Part shown: positions 7,391 through 63,304 of the stretch, one piece after another | How positions within the stretch are numbered: position 1 is the stretch's first letter | Layout of the letters: each line of letters opens with the position of its first letter | Source of the DNA: Paracoccus lichenicola | Lineage (GTDB): Bacteria; Pseudomonadota; Alphaproteobacteria; Rhodobacterales; Rhodobacteraceae | Direction of reading: 5' to 3' | NCBI RefSeq assembly: GCF_009708075.1 | Contig: NZ_WMBT01000006.1 | Location: 62,001 to 126,000, forward strand | DNA length: 64,000 bases | The notes under the pieces: generated by a model | Databases searched by the model: none | Seen by the model: the letters and a program-made list of their open reading frames with translations, nothing else | Told to the model about the DNA's origin: nothing | Program-made: the position numbers and the translations under genes

Positions 7391-7690
7391 ATGCAGATCG
7401 ACGACATCCCGGACATGGCGACGCTGCGCGCCCATATTGATGCGCTGGACGAACGGCTGGTGGGCCTTCTGGCGCAGCGCCACGCCCTGATCGCCCAGGC
7501 GGCCCGCATCAAGAAACGCATCGGCCTGCCCGCCCGGATCGACGACCGGGTCGAGGAAGTGGTCGCAAATGCGGGCCGTCACGCCGCATCGCGCGGGCTG
7601 GACCGGGCGCTGATCGAGAATATCTGGCGGCAACTGGTCGAAGCCGCCATTGCGCAGGAAGACCGCTATCTGAACGGAGACCGCCCGTGA
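7391..7690 (+). CDS. Chorismate mutase, AroQ class
   Basis: Small all-helical enzyme that rearranges chorismate to prephenate for phenylalanine and tyrosine synthesis. I chose the ATG at 7391, which has GGAGG 6 bp upstream; longer in-frame starts have no support. The 99-residue product shows the AroQ pattern: [19 protein letters not shown] in helix 1, a basic AARIKKRIG segment and a C-terminal helix [13 protein letters not shown] with the expected Gln/Glu position. An isochorismate pyruvate lyase (PchB-like) activity cannot be excluded from sequence. The stop overlaps the folD start (GTGA), so the two genes are coupled. Confidence 0.85.
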
Positions 7691-8580
7691 CCGCATCCCT
7701 GCCCATCACCGCGAAACTGATCGACGGCAAGGCCTTTGCCGCCCACCTGCGCGCCCGCATTGGGACGGAAGTGGCGGCGATGAAGGCCCAGGGCATCACC
7801 CCCGGCCTGGCCGTGGTGCTGGTGGGCGAGGATCCCGCCAGCCAGGTCTATGTCCGGTCCAAGGGCCGCATGACGCGCGAAGTCGGCATGAATTCCCTTG
7901 AACACCGCTTGCCCGCCGACACGCCGCAAGCCGACCTGCTGGCGCTGATCGACCGGCTGAACGCCGACCCCGCGGTCAACGGCATCCTGGTGCAACTGCC
8001 CCTGCCCCGGCACATGGACGAAGCGGCCGTGATCAACGCCATCGACCCCGCCAAGGACGTGGACGGGTTCCACATCCTGAATGTCGGACGGCTGGCGACA
8101 GGCCAGAAGGCGATGGTGCCCTGCACGCCCCTGGGCTGCCTGATGCTGCTGCGCGCCCATCTGGGAGACCTGTCGGGCAAGAACGCCCTGGTGATCGGGC
8201 GCAGCAATATCGTGGGCAAGCCCATGGCCCAGCTTCTGCTGCGCGACAGCGCGACGGTAACGGTGGCCCATTCCCGGACCGCGAACCTGCCCGCGTTGTG
8301 CCGCCAAGCCGACATCGTGGTGGCCGCCGTGGGACGCGCGCGCTTCGTGCAGGGCGACTGGATCAAGCCGGGCGCAGTGGTGATCGACGTGGGCATCAAC
8401 CGCACCGACGACGGGCTTGTGGGCGATGTCGATTTCGATTCTGCTGCCCCTGTCGCGGGCGCGATCACCCCGGTGCCGGGCGGCGTCGGCCCGATGACCA
8501 TCGCCTGCCTGCTGGCGAACACCTTGACCGCGACAGCGCGTGCCAATGGCCTGCCCGATCCCAAAGGGCTGACGCCTTGA
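7687..8580 (+). CDS. folD: Methylenetetrahydrofolate dehydrogenase/cyclohydrolase FolD
   Basis: Bifunctional cytosolic enzyme interconverting 5,10-methylene-, methenyl- and 10-formyl-tetrahydrofolate. It starts with GTG at 7687, overlapping the chorismate mutase stop. [14 protein letters not shown] carries the catalytic Tyr and Lys. The Rossmann part has [13 protein letters not shown], and the C-terminal signature [10 protein letters not shown] is intact. 297 residues is the normal length. It supplies one-carbon units to the purine enzymes found elsewhere in the window (purU, purQ). Confidence 0.97.
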
Positions 8581-8663: not shown

Positions 8664-8711
8664 CCGGGCGCGGCTCACCCCGCGGGATATTTGTTGTCCA
8701 AAGCAGGACAC

Positions 8712-8817
8712 TTTACCATTTCTCAACCATTTGGCGGCATTCTGATCTTACGGTACAGGCGGGGACGCCGATGACCGTGTCCGAAGCGGGCGCCCCATCC
8801 TCTCGCAGGATGGGGCG
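8712..8817 (+). ncRNA. Candidate small RNA gene, copy A
   Basis: A degenerate CtrA-like box (TTTACCATTTCTCAACC, 8712-8728) is followed after exactly 21 bp by a 28-nt block (8750-8777) identical to one at 20344-20371 on the other strand. The block leads into a perfect 10-bp stem CGCCCCATCC/GGATGGGGCG (8791-8817) and a TTCCTCGTT tract. Identical spacing, identity of the block and a terminator at the end point to a short transcript, probably starting near 8750. No match to a known RNA family is recognised. It could instead be a short leader peptide (ATG at 8771). Confidence 0.45.
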
Positions 8818-8894
8818 TTCCTCGTTCCTGCATTGGACCCCAAATATCCCGGGGGAGTCGCGCATGGCGCGACGGGGGCAGCGCCCCCTGCCCG

Positions 8895-20225: not shown

Positions 20226-20286
20226 AAATCAAGAAGGGGGGCGCTGCCCCCCGTCCCCGATGGGGACTCCCCCCGGGATATTTAGG

Positions 20287-20409
20287 CCAAGGCAAAACCA
20301 TGACACCCCGCTTCCGCAAGGAAACGGGGCGCTTTGCCTTGGACGGTCATCGGCGTCCCCGCCTGTACCGTGAGCCTGTCTTGCCAGGTGAAAGTTAAGA
20401 AAAGGTTTC
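20287..20409 (-). ncRNA. Candidate small RNA gene, copy B
   Basis: Reads on the minus strand: box GAAACCTTTTCTTAACT (20409-20393), 21 bp, the 28-nt block identical to 8750-8777 (20371-20344), then a strong hairpin. The hairpin has an outer stem CCAAGGCAAA/TTTGCCTTGG and an inner stem of ten pairs with one mismatch-type G-U. A 22-codon frame starts in the block (MTVQGKAPRFLAEAG...) and ends at TAA inside the hairpin arm, so a tiny peptide is an alternative. The hairpin also serves as a likely terminator for bmp. Confidence 0.45.
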
Positions 20410-20456
20410 GGCCTTTGCCTTGGCGTCAAATATCCTGCGGGGTGAGGAGCGCCCGG

Positions 20457-20530: not shown

Positions 20531-21415
20531 TCAGCCCATCCGCTCGCTGGCATAGCTGCCGGGCGAGGGCGGGAAGACCACGGTCTTGTCGCCGTTCAGG
20601 AACACCCGGCCATGGATATGGGCATGGACGGCGCGAGCCAGCACCTGCGCCTCGACATCGCGGCCAAGGGATACATAGTCGCCGGGCGATTGCGCATGGG
20701 TCACGCGCACGGTGTCCTGTTCGATGATCGGGCCTTCGTCCAGGTCGGCGGTGACGTAATGGCTGGTCGCGCCGATCAGCTTGACCCCGCGCTCGTATGC
20801 CTGCTTGTAGGGGTTGGCGCCCTTGAAGGACGGCAGGAAGGAATGGTGGATGTTGATGATCCGGCCCGACATGGCTTGGCACATCTCGTCCGACAGGACC
20901 TGCATGTAGCGCGCCAGCACGATCAGTTCCGCGCCGCTGTCGCGGACGATGCGCATCTGTTCGGCCTCGGCCTGCGCCTTGTTTTCCTTGGTCACGTTGA
21001 CGCAGTAATAAGGCAGGTCGTGGTTCACGACGACCTTCTGGTAATCCATGTGGTTGGAAATCACCGCCACGATGTCGATGGGCAGCGCGCCGATCCGCCA
21101 GCGGTACAGCAAATCGTTCAGGCAATGCCCGAACCGGCTGACCATGATGACGACCTTCTTTTTCACCGCGTCGTCGCTGAAATCCGCCTCCATCCCGAAA
21201 CGCTCGGCGATGGGGGCGATGCCCCCCTGCAACGTCTCCAGCGTCGCCCCGCCTTCGGACCGGAAGCTGACGCGCATGAAGAAGCGGCCGGTTTCCGTGT
21301 CGTCGAACTGCGCGCTGTCGGTGATGTTGCAGTCGTGCCCCGCCAGATAGCCCGAGATCGCGGCCACGATCCCGCGGGTCGAGGCACAGGTGACGCGCAG
21401 CGTATAGCTTTTCAT
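20531..21415 (-). CDS. purU: Formyltetrahydrofolate deformylase PurU
   Basis: Hydrolyses 10-formyl-THF to formate and THF, balancing one-carbon pools. The start at 21415 gives MKSYTLRVTCASTRGIVAA, the normal beginning of the N-terminal ACT domain, and 294 residues. The catalytic triad is visible: Asn in VISNHMD, His in IHHSFLPSFKGANPYKQA and Asp in ADLDEGPIIEQD. It lies 116 bp downstream of the M20 amidohydrolase on the same strand. Some Rhodobacterales use such enzymes in demethylation pathways, which cannot be decided here. Confidence 0.96.
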   Translation of the reverse strand: MKSYTLRVTCASTRGIVAAISGYLAGHDCNITDSAQFDDTETGRFFMRVSFRSEGGATLETLQGGIAPIAERFGMEADFSDDAVKKKVVIMVSRFGHCLNDLLYRWRIGALPIDIVAVISNHMDYQKVVVNHDLPYYCVNVTKENKAQAEAEQMRIVRDSGAELIVLARYMQVLSDEMCQAMSGRIINIHHSFLPSFKGANPYKQAYERGVKLIGATSHYVTADLDEGPIIEQDTVRVTHAQSPGDYVSLGRDVEAQVLARAVHAHIHGRVFLNGDKTVVFPPSPGSYASERMG

Positions 21416-21531
21416 GGGGGGTCCGCTTCCTTGGCTGTCCGGTGACGGCATTTCGGACGATTGCGGCGCAATGGCAATCGCATTTCCGACACCGCCGGGG
21501 GCTGGCGCGACATCCCCCGGCGGCAAGAGGG

Positions 21532-22698
21532 TCAGGCGGCGGGCATCCGTGCCTCGACCATGCCGGCATACCAGCTGGACCCCGCCGGGATCGCGTCGTC
21601 GTTGAAGTTGTAGGCCGGGTGGTGGACCATCGCCGTGTCGCCGTTGCCCACGAAGATATATGCACCGGGACGTTCGTTCAGCATGTAGCTGAAATCCTCG
21701 CCCCCCATCATCGGCTGCATGTCCAGGTTCACCTCGCCCGCGATGTCGCGCGCCACGTCCGCCGCCCAGACGGTCGCCTGGTCGTCGTTCATCGTGACCG
21801 GATAGCCGCGCTGGTAATCGACCTGGGCCGTGGCGCCCATGGCGGCGGCGATGTTGGTGGCGACGCGGGTGATGCCGTCCTGCAGCTGGTCGCGCACGCC
21901 CGCGTCCAGGCTGCGGGCGGTGCCCTTCAGCTTCACGACCTGGGGGATCACGTTGTGCGCGGTCGAATCGGTGGACACGACGCAGACGGACACCACCGCG
22001 TTCTTCAGCGGGTCGATGTTGCGCGACACGACCGATTGCAGCGCGACGATGATCTGGGCGGCGGTCAGCGTGGTGTCGATGCATTCGTGGGGCTTGGCCG
22101 CGTGCCCGCCCTTGCCGGTCACGATGATGTCGAACTGGTCGGCCGCCGCCATCATCGGGCCGGGCTTGATCGAGAAGCTGCCCACCGGCATCCCCGGCAT
22201 GTTGTGCATCCCGTAGAATTCCTGGATGTTCCAGCGGCTGACCAGCCCGTCGCGGACCATGGCGTCGCCGCCGCCGCCGCCTTCTTCGGCCGGCTGGAAG
22301 ATCACCACGGCGGTGCCATCAAAGTTGCGCGTCTCGGCCAGGTATCTGGCCGCGCCCAGCAGCATCGCGGTATGGCCGTCATGGCCGCAGGCGTGCATCT
22401 TGCCCGGGGTCTTGGAGGCATAGTCCAGGCCCGTCTGCTCGATGATCGGCAGGGCGTCCATGTCGGCGCGCAGCCCGATCACGCGGCCCTGGGTGTCGGA
22501 CTTGCCCTTGATGACGCCGACCACGCCGGTCTGGCCCACGCCTTCCACCACCTCGTCGCAGCCGAAACCGCGCAGCAATTCGGCCACCCGGCCTGCCGTG
22601 CGGTGGACATCGTACAGCAGTTCGGGATGTTCGTGGAAATCGCGGCGCCAAGCGGTGATTTCGGGCAGAAGTTCGGCAAAGCGGTTCTTGACGGGCAT
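21532..22698 (-). CDS. M20 family amidohydrolase (hippurate hydrolase-like)
   Basis: Zinc-dependent aminoacylase/carboxypeptidase that removes acyl groups from N-acyl amino acids or short peptides. 388 residues, with a good Shine-Dalgarno AAGGAGAT before the ATG. Family motifs: FHEHPEL, GLRADMDALPI, HACGHDGHTAML, PAEEGGGGGDAMV and GGEDFSYML, so the metal ligands are all present. A central dimerisation domain is seen. It is 64 bp after the FAD oxidoreductase and in line with the peptide ABC ATPase, suggesting it acts on an imported compound. Exact substrate unknown. Confidence 0.9.
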   Translation of the reverse strand: MPVKNRFAELLPEITAWRRDFHEHPELLYDVHRTAGRVAELLRGFGCDEVVEGVGQTGVVGVIKGKSDTQGRVIGLRADMDALPIIEQTGLDYASKTPGKMHACGHDGHTAMLLGAARYLAETRNFDGTAVVIFQPAEEGGGGGDAMVRDGLVSRWNIQEFYGMHNMPGMPVGSFSIKPGPMMAAADQFDIIVTGKGGHAAKPHECIDTTLTAAQIIVALQSVVSRNIDPLKNAVVSVCVVSTDSTAHNVIPQVVKLKGTARSLDAGVRDQLQDGITRVATNIAAAMGATAQVDYQRGYPVTMNDDQATVWAADVARDIAGEVNLDMQPMMGGEDFSYMLNERPGAYIFVGNGDTAMVHHPAYNFNDDAIPAGSSWYAGMVEARMPAA

Positions 22699-36688: not shown

Positions 36689-36752
36689 CCCCCCGAGGAT
36701 ATTTGAGTGAAGAAGATGGCCGCTTCTTCTTCACTCAAATATCCTCGGGGGG
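36689..36752. terminator. 27-bp perfect inverted repeat between ALDH and folE2
   Basis: Arms 36689-36715 and 36726-36752 are exact reverse complements around a 10-nt loop. Each arm contains GAGGATATTTGAGTGAAG. It sits between convergent genes, so it most likely ends transcription from both sides. It is the most perfect member of the AAATATCC-type intergenic family in this window; a GGGGGGCGAAGCGCCCCC hairpin follows. Confidence 0.75.
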
Positions 36753-43599: not shown

Positions 43600-43705
43600 A
43601 AAGAGGGGGCTTCGCGCCCCCGCCCCCCTGACGGGGGACTCCCCCGCGGAATACTTGGACCAAGGCAAAGCGGCTTTTGCCTTGGCCCAAATATCCCCGC
43701 CGGAG
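43600..43705. repeat. Intergenic AAATATCC-type palindrome cluster
   Basis: Between purQ and icd. A GGGGGCTTCGCGCCCCC hairpin and a CCCCCCTGACGGGGG hairpin are followed by CCAAGGCAAA(GCGGC)TTTTGCCTTGG, a perfect 10-bp stem, and then AAATATCCCC. The CCAAGGCAAA arms recur in the candidate sRNA hairpin at 20287-20342. Confidence 0.65.
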
Positions 43706-49527: not shown

Positions 49528-49604
49528 TGGTAGCGGAGGAGGGATTTGAACCCCCGACACGCGGATTATGATTCCGCTGCTCTAACCAGCTGAGCTACTC
49601 CGCC
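49528..49604 (-). tRNA. tRNA-Met (anticodon CAT, elongator type)
   Basis: 77-nt cloverleaf with encoded CCA. Acceptor stem GGCGGAG pairs with CTCCGCT (one G-U), the D arm reads GCTCAGCTGGTTAGAGC, and the anticodon stem GCGGA/TCCGC holds loop ATCATAA. CAT could also be Ile2 after lysidine modification, but the stem-loop and D arm match alphaproteobacterial elongator Met. Confidence 0.9.
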
Positions 49605-60139: not shown

Positions 60140-60195
60140 GCGGTGGCTGGGGGCGCTTCGCCCCCCAGACCCCCAGAGGATATTTGCGTGAAGAA
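60140..60195. repeat. AAATATCC-type repeat, half element
   Basis: Between the reductase and rsmD. GGGGGCGCTTCGCCCCC hairpin, then AGAGGATATTTGCGTGAAGAAG, matching one arm of the 36689-36752 palindrome. It lies just downstream of the reductase stop and could help end its message. Confidence 0.6.
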
Positions 60196-60201
60196 GAACC
60201 A

Positions 60202-63125: not shown

Positions 63126-63304
63126 GGGGCCAAGCTAGGCATTGGCAACGGCTTTGTCAGCCGCCCAAGCGCACAATCACGCTTTTGCCTTGGCTTAAAT
63201 ATCCCACGGGGTGAGACGCGCCCGGAAAAAGGTCCAGTGGACCTTTTTCAGCGGCGAACGCCTGCCGCCTTGCGGCAGGCAGGGGGACGTGAAGTCCCCC
63301 GGCT
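63126..63304. repeat. REP-like unit and AAATATCC box, copy 4
   Basis: The spacer between two minus-strand genes holds GCTTTTGCCTTGG, TAAATATCC, GGGGTGAG, GCGCCCGG, the perfect palindrome (63226-63248) and the hairpin CCTGCCGCCTTGCGGCAGG. The order matches copy 1. This is the only copy between tandem rather than convergent genes. Confidence 0.8.

Follow-up and report, generated by a model that had tools for sequence, protein, structure and literature searches.

The window analysed here, a stretch of 64,000 nucleotides from Paracoccus lichenicola, holds two copies of a 29-nt block that are identical to each other, one on the forward strand (8750-8778) and one on the reverse strand (20371-20343). 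The original prediction had described an exact match of 28 nt and a gene of two copies; the identity between the copies stands, but the true length is 29 nt, and two copies are indeed found in the window, but the genome has four. One of the two copies outside the window, GCGGTACAGGCTGGGAAGCCGATGACCGC, is a variant whose changed pairs are compensatory. A search of the window with the inner 25 nt, allowing up to 3 mismatches, returned 2 matches, both of them block copies, against 0 in 100 shuffles. The succession of box, block and hairpin was confirmed at the predicted positions on both strands, with a spacing of 21 bp between box and block in each copy; 11 of the 17 bases of the upstream box agree between the copies (counted by eye), and the predicted folds place a GC-rich, terminator-like hairpin 3' of each block, at 8788-8824 (core 8790-8818) and at 20332-20303. 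What the prediction overlooked were the copy number, the sites in trans and the loop/seed code. Copy 1 is flanked by a folD-type gene for THF dehydrogenase/cyclohydrolase and by ruvB, which is convergent; copy 2 is flanked by a formyl-transferase/ACT-domain gene and by a Bmp-type gene, also convergent. The genes 5' of the two copies (7687-8580 and 20531-22084) both match folate one-carbon Pfam families, THF dehydrogenase/cyclohydrolase for copy 1 and formyl transferase with ACT for copy 2; this shared neighbourhood is probably due to chance, since the neighbour clusters of other loci show no such trend by eye.

The same series of features surrounds each block. On the forward strand, copy 1 is preceded by the flank motif GGA-TATTT (8685-8692; the triplet, here GGA, is called xyz below), an A box GTCCAAAGCAGG (8696-8707) that is an inverted copy of a family-F2 site, a CtrA-type box TTTAC-N6-TCAAC (8712-8728), which is a degenerate form of TTAA-N7-TTAA, and a -10-like CATTCT (8738-8743) with A and T at the conserved places. 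The block itself would form the hairpin at the 5' end of the predicted RNA, with tetraloop GGGA at 8762-8765 (xyz at 8763-8765), and is followed by a B box, or seed, TGTCCGAAGCGGG (8778-8790), by the GC-rich hairpin and by a C box CCTGCATTGGAC-CCC-AAATATCC (8827-8849) of site family F2. On the reverse strand, copy 2 has the flank motif GGA-TATTT (20428-20435), A box CCAAGGCAAAGG (20412-20423), a CtrA-type box GAAAC-N6-TTAAC with one good half-site (20393-20409), the block with its predicted 5'-end hairpin and tetraloop GGGA (20343-20371), B box TCCAAGGCAAAG (20332-20343), the terminator-like hairpin (20303-20332) and a C box TTTTGCCTTGG-CCT-AAATATCC of family F3 (20276-20297). In the predicted folds of both RNAs the first hairpin is followed by the B box, partly open in copy 1 and mostly open in copy 2, and then by the GC-rich hairpin. 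Sites also occur in the window away from the block: an inverted pair of family F4 (GGATATTT...AAATATCC) without a block at 36697-36744, a family-F3 site (TTTTGCCTTGG-CCC-AAATATCC) at 43675-43696 (+), immediately preceded by a left arm of its own, a family-F4 site (TTCTTCTTCACGCAAATATCC) at 60178-60198 (-), and a family-F3 site (TTTTGCCTTGGCTTAAATATCC) at 63183-63204 (+).

The block belongs to a large family. A pattern scan found it in 62 of 120 genomes of the bacterial family, with 0 in the reversed control, and a covariance model (E <= 1e-6) matched 92 of the 120, leaving 28 without a match; among the 108 good genomes 83 were matched, with one to four matches each. In a class-wide scan (385 genomes, E <= 0.001) 26 genomes were matched, several of them weakly, and scores above 40 bits outside the family were obtained for G350, G252, G132, G267, G265, G333 and G364. 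At least 118 stretches of the named collection carry the block, the 80 listed by title being mostly Rhodobacterales, while viral contigs gave 0 exact matches. Of 191 copies, one chance match (L168) was dropped and then those more than 80% identical, leaving 186 non-redundant copies; the statistics on the A, B and C boxes refer to 179 copies with enough flank. No family of Rfam 15 reaches its gathering score in the window except one tRNA, a single tRNA-Met (cat) gene at 49528-49604 (-), and the window stretch and 20 relatives give only scattered matches below gathering. One of these, a weak covariance match to Spot 42 (RF00021) over block and hairpin, resembles that RNA at 21.6 bits, but the score is far from the gathering score of 80 and the match is absent from the 20 relatives; it is most likely a chance match. 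The literature covered (supplements and subscription papers lay outside its scope) contained no description of the RNA or of its code; the RNA may be an unnamed entry in a published list of sRNAs, for example among the 167 of PMC5107571.

A structural alignment of 60 diverse copies (52 columns) describes a two-step hairpin, RCGGU-ACA-GGCN-loop-N'GCC-GAUG-ACCGY. In this alignment 98.9% of the cells are paired and 50 cells are changed on both sides, values that were each reached by 0 of 500 shuffles; the pairs with a two-sided change are 2 (reached by 59 of 500 shuffles) and the further pair types 8 (reached by 8 of 500). Covariation is beyond every shuffle in three of the five measures, and the predicted RNA has a conserved secondary structure, as would be expected of a trans-acting antisense sRNA. 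Two pairs vary, the outermost (G-C, A-U, G-U) and the one that closes the loop (G-C, U-A, A-U), while the internal loop ACA/GAUG is nearly invariant; the block, predicted to be invariant, is so in the two window copies, but in the family its outer pair, loop-closing pair and tetraloop vary coordinately.

Upstream of the 186 copies (numbered so that block base 1 is 1 and the preceding base 0) there is an A at -35 (84%) and an A at -24 (88%) within TTAA-like halves 11 bp apart, then an A at -10 (70%) and a T at -6 (78%) in the position of a -10 element, and a purine at block base 1. From the fixed distance of these promoter-like elements, block base 1 is the predicted start of transcription. Both TTAA-like halves are matched in at least 3 of 4 positions in 51 of 184 copies, as compared with 0 at six shifted positions, and in a second class of copies a TTAACC can be seen by eye farther upstream. 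In Rhodobacterales the CtrA consensus is TTAA-N7-TTAAC (PMC4046655). The boxes at the RNA gene are similar to the promoter boxes of the CtrA regulon of this order, a resemblance the original prediction had noted, but their half-sites are degenerate, in both window copies too; at the level of the family the TTAA-N7-TTAA layout at a fixed distance appears to be of CtrA type, and perhaps CtrA drives the promoter. The predicted small-RNA family is well supported at the sequence level by its presence in 92 of 120 genomes, by the hairpin covariation, by this layout, by the hairpin 3' of both window copies and by the lack of protein conservation past some six codons, and block and promoter-like elements do recur with fixed spacing across the family.

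The tetraloop is related to both flanks of the element: its last three bases (xyz) are the three bases before the upstream TATTT, and the three bases after the downstream AAATA are their complement. Allowing any TATTT upstream or AAATA downstream motif in the stretch, loop xyz equals the upstream flank in 147 of 158 copies (shuffled loops: mean 66.6, maximum 81) and complements the downstream flank in 126 of 138 (shuffled: mean 53.9, maximum 66), the mismatches being 11 and 12, respectively. For loops other than GGA alone, the corresponding values are 51 of 56 and 50 of 53, against 15.3 and 13.7 for shuffled loops. The codes that match a flank include GGA, GAG, AGG, GGG, GCG, CGG, AGA and GTG, and L223 violates the rule. 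Outside the family the code is kept in L218 and L219, on the downstream side in L242, and also in a Rhizobium megaplasmid and in Legionella anisa.

A second relationship involves the B box, the 10-12 bases after the hairpin, which repeats the upstream A box and complements the downstream C box. A match of at least 9 of 11 bases is found between B and A in 129 of the 179 copies and between B and the complement of C in 135; when B is exchanged between copies these numbers fall to 8 and 21. Among the copies with a match of at least 9/11, B and A differ in 171 letters, 35 of them by transversion, and B and the complement of C in 198 letters, 65 by transversion. The transitions are one-sided: between B and A, those with G in B and A in the copy, which keep a G.U pair, number 126 vs 5 for the reverse (A.C), and between B and C those keeping G.U number 124 vs 4 that break it. 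RNA position 35 holds 94 differences in each set. The 59 dispersed sites of the P. lichenicola genome behave in the same way, with 41 G.U-keeping and 0 breaking transitions among 54 differences. One-sided transitions of this kind argue for base pairing with the C strand, because DNA copying would favour neither direction. Loop xyz and B box together constitute a bipartite complement of sites of the form C-nnn-AAATA-x'y'z', and the RNA therefore likely base-pairs with the dispersed sites as a bipartite guide.

In the genome of the window itself, a search for AAATATCC with a pyrimidine at -19 gave 73 rows, 58 of which fall within families that fit the four RNAs of that genome; 15 rows remain unclassified, and the reversed control gave 6. 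Copy 1 of the window fits CCTGCTTTGGAC (6 rows, element flanks included) and copy 2 fits TTTGCCTTGG (12 rows, element flanks included). A general terminator feature was also considered as the origin of these rows and was rejected because 58 of the 73 sit in families cognate to an RNA. By duplex energy 56 of the 59 sites, among which we kept L243, L252 and L283 although they may be chance coding matches, pair best with the RNA expected of them; as the assignment of family F5 (18 of the 59 sites) was made from the B box of its RNA and is therefore circular, the value without F5, 39 of 41, is also given. The sites occur singly or in inverted pairs without the block, and in a script test 53 of the 59 lack an arm of the GGATATTT type in the 110 nt upstream.

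We have also studied whether sites in other genomes carry the code of the element of the same genome. In a search that fixed only CTTCTT and AAATAYYYC, in which some rows overlap on a single site or come from element flanks, the expected code was found in 15 of 17 rows for G105 (CCT), 8 of 8 for G035 and 15 of 15 for G039 (both CTC), and 31 of 33 for G082 and 16 of 17 for the genome of the window (both TCC). With this search G119 showed two codes, G097 gave one row and G067 two, G018 and G022 gave 0 rows, and the reversed control produced a single hit in G035 and another in G039; G035 and G082 each have a second element with a different loop, for which these two motifs found no sites. The RNA of Jannaschia pagri predicts the C box CATCACGGGTC and the code CTC: with CATCAC and AAATANNC fixed, 16 rows were obtained, 11 of which have both C box and code, against 0 in the reversed control, and of these 11 predicted sites 2 lie just upstream of the RNA gene and nine elsewhere. 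The same search returned near-matches only for G563 and no clear set for eight other genomes. Separately, G563 contains five identical sites TTCACCTTTTTCCAAATATCC, which point to a further RNA in that genome. A third search, with TTCACC and AAATANNC, covered 14 genomes, for 13 of which the prediction was of matching type; 25 rows, which may include the element's own flanks, have the exact predicted C box, and 24 carry the predicted code. The exception is G572, whose only exact C box has CTC although CGC would be expected from the loop, and which also has the sole hit of the reversed control; in G022 there are eight TCC sites whose C box deviates by one base; and G574, G020, G066, G082 and G575 gave no predicted site in this search. 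Overall the complementarity to sites in trans, as expected of an sRNA, goes beyond chance, with failures in these five genomes. A dialect could not be read from raw counts in 8-kb loci, which are too sparse, and a loose pattern applied to plasmids and distant genomes gave reversed controls of the same order as the hits and is uninformative. Near sites in G561 and G105 TTAAGGTTAA or TTAACCTTAA recurs upstream of the C box (L405, L408, L410, L413, L417, L419, L423).

The location of the sites with respect to genes was studied for 102 sites in four genomes (59 in P. lichenicola, and 22, 11 and 10), with genes called by an ORF plus GC3 heuristic. The orientations of the left and right genes are (+,-) in 49 cases, (-,-) in 20, (+,+) in 6 and (-,+) in 1, the rest being incomplete. 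The right-hand gene is convergent at 81 of 88 sites and the left gene is in sense orientation at 66 of 89; in 27 of these 66 sense cases the C box begins 0-10 nt past the stop codon of the left gene. At 146 loci of the RNA gene the counts are (-,-) 49, (+,-) 42, (+,+) 22 and (-,+) 16, with the rest incomplete, and thus the RNA genes are not confined to convergent pairs. By Pfam the target genes examined are functionally mixed, and include phosphoribosylglycinamide synthetase, dihydrouridine synthase, B12-dependent methionine synthase and glycosyltransferase family 20.

Site positions turn over. Among same-genus relatives (best 29 of 60), 9 have a site close after the stop codon of pheT; these include the seven closest relatives, the C boxes belong to different families, and in three relatives the AAATA is altered. 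At the same spot after the pheT stop, L303, L363-L369 and L372 have different site families and GC-hairpin tails. It thus appears that pheT 3' cassettes have been swapped wholesale between close relatives. No counterpart of the pheT and nucleoside-phosphorylase-gene sites of P. lichenicola was found at the corresponding position in other genera; at pheT, L318, L319 and L321 have motifs in the opposite orientation. The RNA gene, on the other hand, lies beside one gene, which we take from its sequence to be acyl-CoA-dehydrogenase-like, at 30 of 146 loci, in one orientation at 22 and in the other at 8; these loci have four codes and many B boxes. The RNA gene is steadier than its sites, and address and sites appear to change together.

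These results can be interpreted as follows. The 29-nt blocks would encode the two-step hairpin of a multi-copy RNA that starts at the block, and tetraloop xyz and B box would pair jointly with the C strand of the site, more likely as RNA than as DNA. As the right-hand gene is convergent at 81 of 88 sites, a transcript of the C strand would run into the 3' end of that gene as antisense. The convergent right-hand genes, together with the C box just after the left stop codon, lead us to propose that transcripts reading into the opposing gene are stopped, or marked for decay, by the paired guide; the guide would act in trans as the left arm, which in an ordinary terminator hairpin is present in cis. 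That a bipartite antisense guide RNA pairs with dispersed sites and in this way stops transcripts from entering opposing genes is a reading to which we assign an even chance. We infer the pairing from covariation and polarity, and also the production of the RNA and its control by CtrA; the insulation effect, drawn from site orientation alone, is the most speculative element. Several observations fit poorly. The (-,-) sites exceed the (+,+) sites by 20 to 6, a misfit with a simple targeting of the mRNA of the upstream gene; B and its matches differ also by transversions (35 of 171 and 65 of 198); the target genes are mixed; some hint of a mobile origin comes from the plasmid copies close to repA and mob genes; and the turnover of sites between genera, with the C-box swap at pheT, is more easily explained by a mobile or recombining repeat than by host regulation.

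A broader form of the guide-RNA reading, which we consider tentative and somewhat less probable, is that of an RNA addressing system, with up to four paralogous guides per genome, orthogonal dialects and a loop-plus-seed code, in which a terminator arm supplied in trans, or the direction of a protein, would insulate opposing genes; equally tentative is its corollary that code and sites change together between genera and have travelled on plasmids as far as Legionella. Should the pairing prove real, the partners of small RNAs can be families of dispersed addresses and not particular genes, with several independent families per cell that are rewritten in step between genera. It would explain why a class of intergenic repeats exists and offer a testable mode of action for RNA at the ends of genes, and natural variation has already marked the key letters: loop xyz, the B box and x'y'z'.

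The strongest counter-reading, which we regard as unlikely although it is the main rival, is that of an RNA-guided repeat element: the RNA would guide a trans-encoded enzyme to DNA, the sites would be ends or solo copies of a REP-like element, and the code would serve for end recognition, as in IS110 bridge RNAs or the guide/cleavage pairs of IS200/IS605. In REP/BIME systems with RAYT, short intergenic repeats occur together with a central transposase gene that is enclosed by an inverted pair. The present sites are likewise dispersed, partly palindromic short repeats at gene 3' ends, single or in inverted pairs without the block and with lineage-specific dialects, and most copies are enclosed by an inverted pair (116 of 179, both arms at least 9/11), but the central gene is here an RNA and not a transposase. 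The loops of the IS110/IS1111 bridge RNA (seekRNA) co-vary with the element ends, as the loops do in our family, in which, however, a single 29-nt hairpin plus seed is found with a host-type promoter layout. Those RNAs are the subject of PMC11208160 and PMC11187229. The turnover of sites, the swap at pheT, the plasmid copies near repA and mob genes and the fact that the RNA stands beside one gene family in both orientations (22 vs 8 of 30) are all in keeping with an element. Against it, inspection by eye identified none of the 14 recurrent neighbour clusters (nearest ORFs, at least 3 members) as a transposase, the promoter layout is conserved, and the RNA stays beside one gene family at 30 of 146 loci, unlike a freely mobile gene.

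A conventional trans-acting sRNA, linked to CtrA, that pairs with the 3'UTRs of dozens of genes just past the sense stop codon and alters mRNA stability or termination appears improbable to us. Trans-acting antisense sRNAs have a hairpin, a seed and a terminator, and the RNA studied here has the same predicted layout, a seed pairing of 10-12 nt and the G.U-tolerant polarity; the sense orientation of 66 of 89 left genes, with the C box immediately after the stop in 27 of the 66, also agrees with such a role. The excess of (-,-) over (+,+) sites does not, nor do the functional mixture of the targets and the turnover of the gene that carries a site. Unlike those sRNAs, moreover, the match has two parts, loop plus seed, the targets form families of dispersed, nearly identical sites between genes, with a dialect that changes along with the RNA, and there are several paralogues, each with its own sites. 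A purely cis structure, a bidirectional terminator with a 3'-tail pseudoknot to which the dispersed sites would be unrelated terminators, is very improbable: a single transcript allows pairing of B with C and of the loop with x'y'z', and copy L004 of P. lichenicola, folded with its C box, does pair B with C, but the dispersed sites have the same C box and code as an element of their genome and 53 of 59 lack the upstream arm, so that the trans predictions disfavour this reading, with which the five genomes without a predicted site remain compatible. We give next to no credence to a conserved short leader peptide, for which the loop would be a Shine-Dalgarno sequence and GATG would hold the start codon: an ATG stands at block positions 22-24 in 186 of 186 copies, a few bases after the purine-rich loop, and codons 2-3 are largely T and V/A, but the frames span 3-81 codons, 48 of 186 are open past 250 nt, conservation is little after codon 6 (as predicted, there is no conserved ORF), and the loops, GGCG and GCGG among them, vary with the flank code and not with the ribosome.

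Copies of the block are found also on plasmids, with 72 records of PLSDB matched at E <= 10, weak matches included; the best rows include Legionella, Phaeobacter, Paracoccus, Cereibacter, Shinella and Rhizobium replicons. A replication initiator gene lies 0.3-1.1 kb from the block in L425, L427, L428, L429, L433 and L435; none is annotated near it in L426, L430, L431 and L432, and L434 is without annotation. The plasmids of Legionella anisa (L424/L430) and L. longbeachae (L431) carry gammaproteobacterial copies with matching sites adjoining, which suggests that the system has been transferred on conjugative plasmids. The distant and plasmid copies L215, L425, L429 and L435 have flanks of one type, GGGGGnCTCATnnCCGnCCCCC...CCCCGCTAGGAT, which makes up a distinct tail of the site element.
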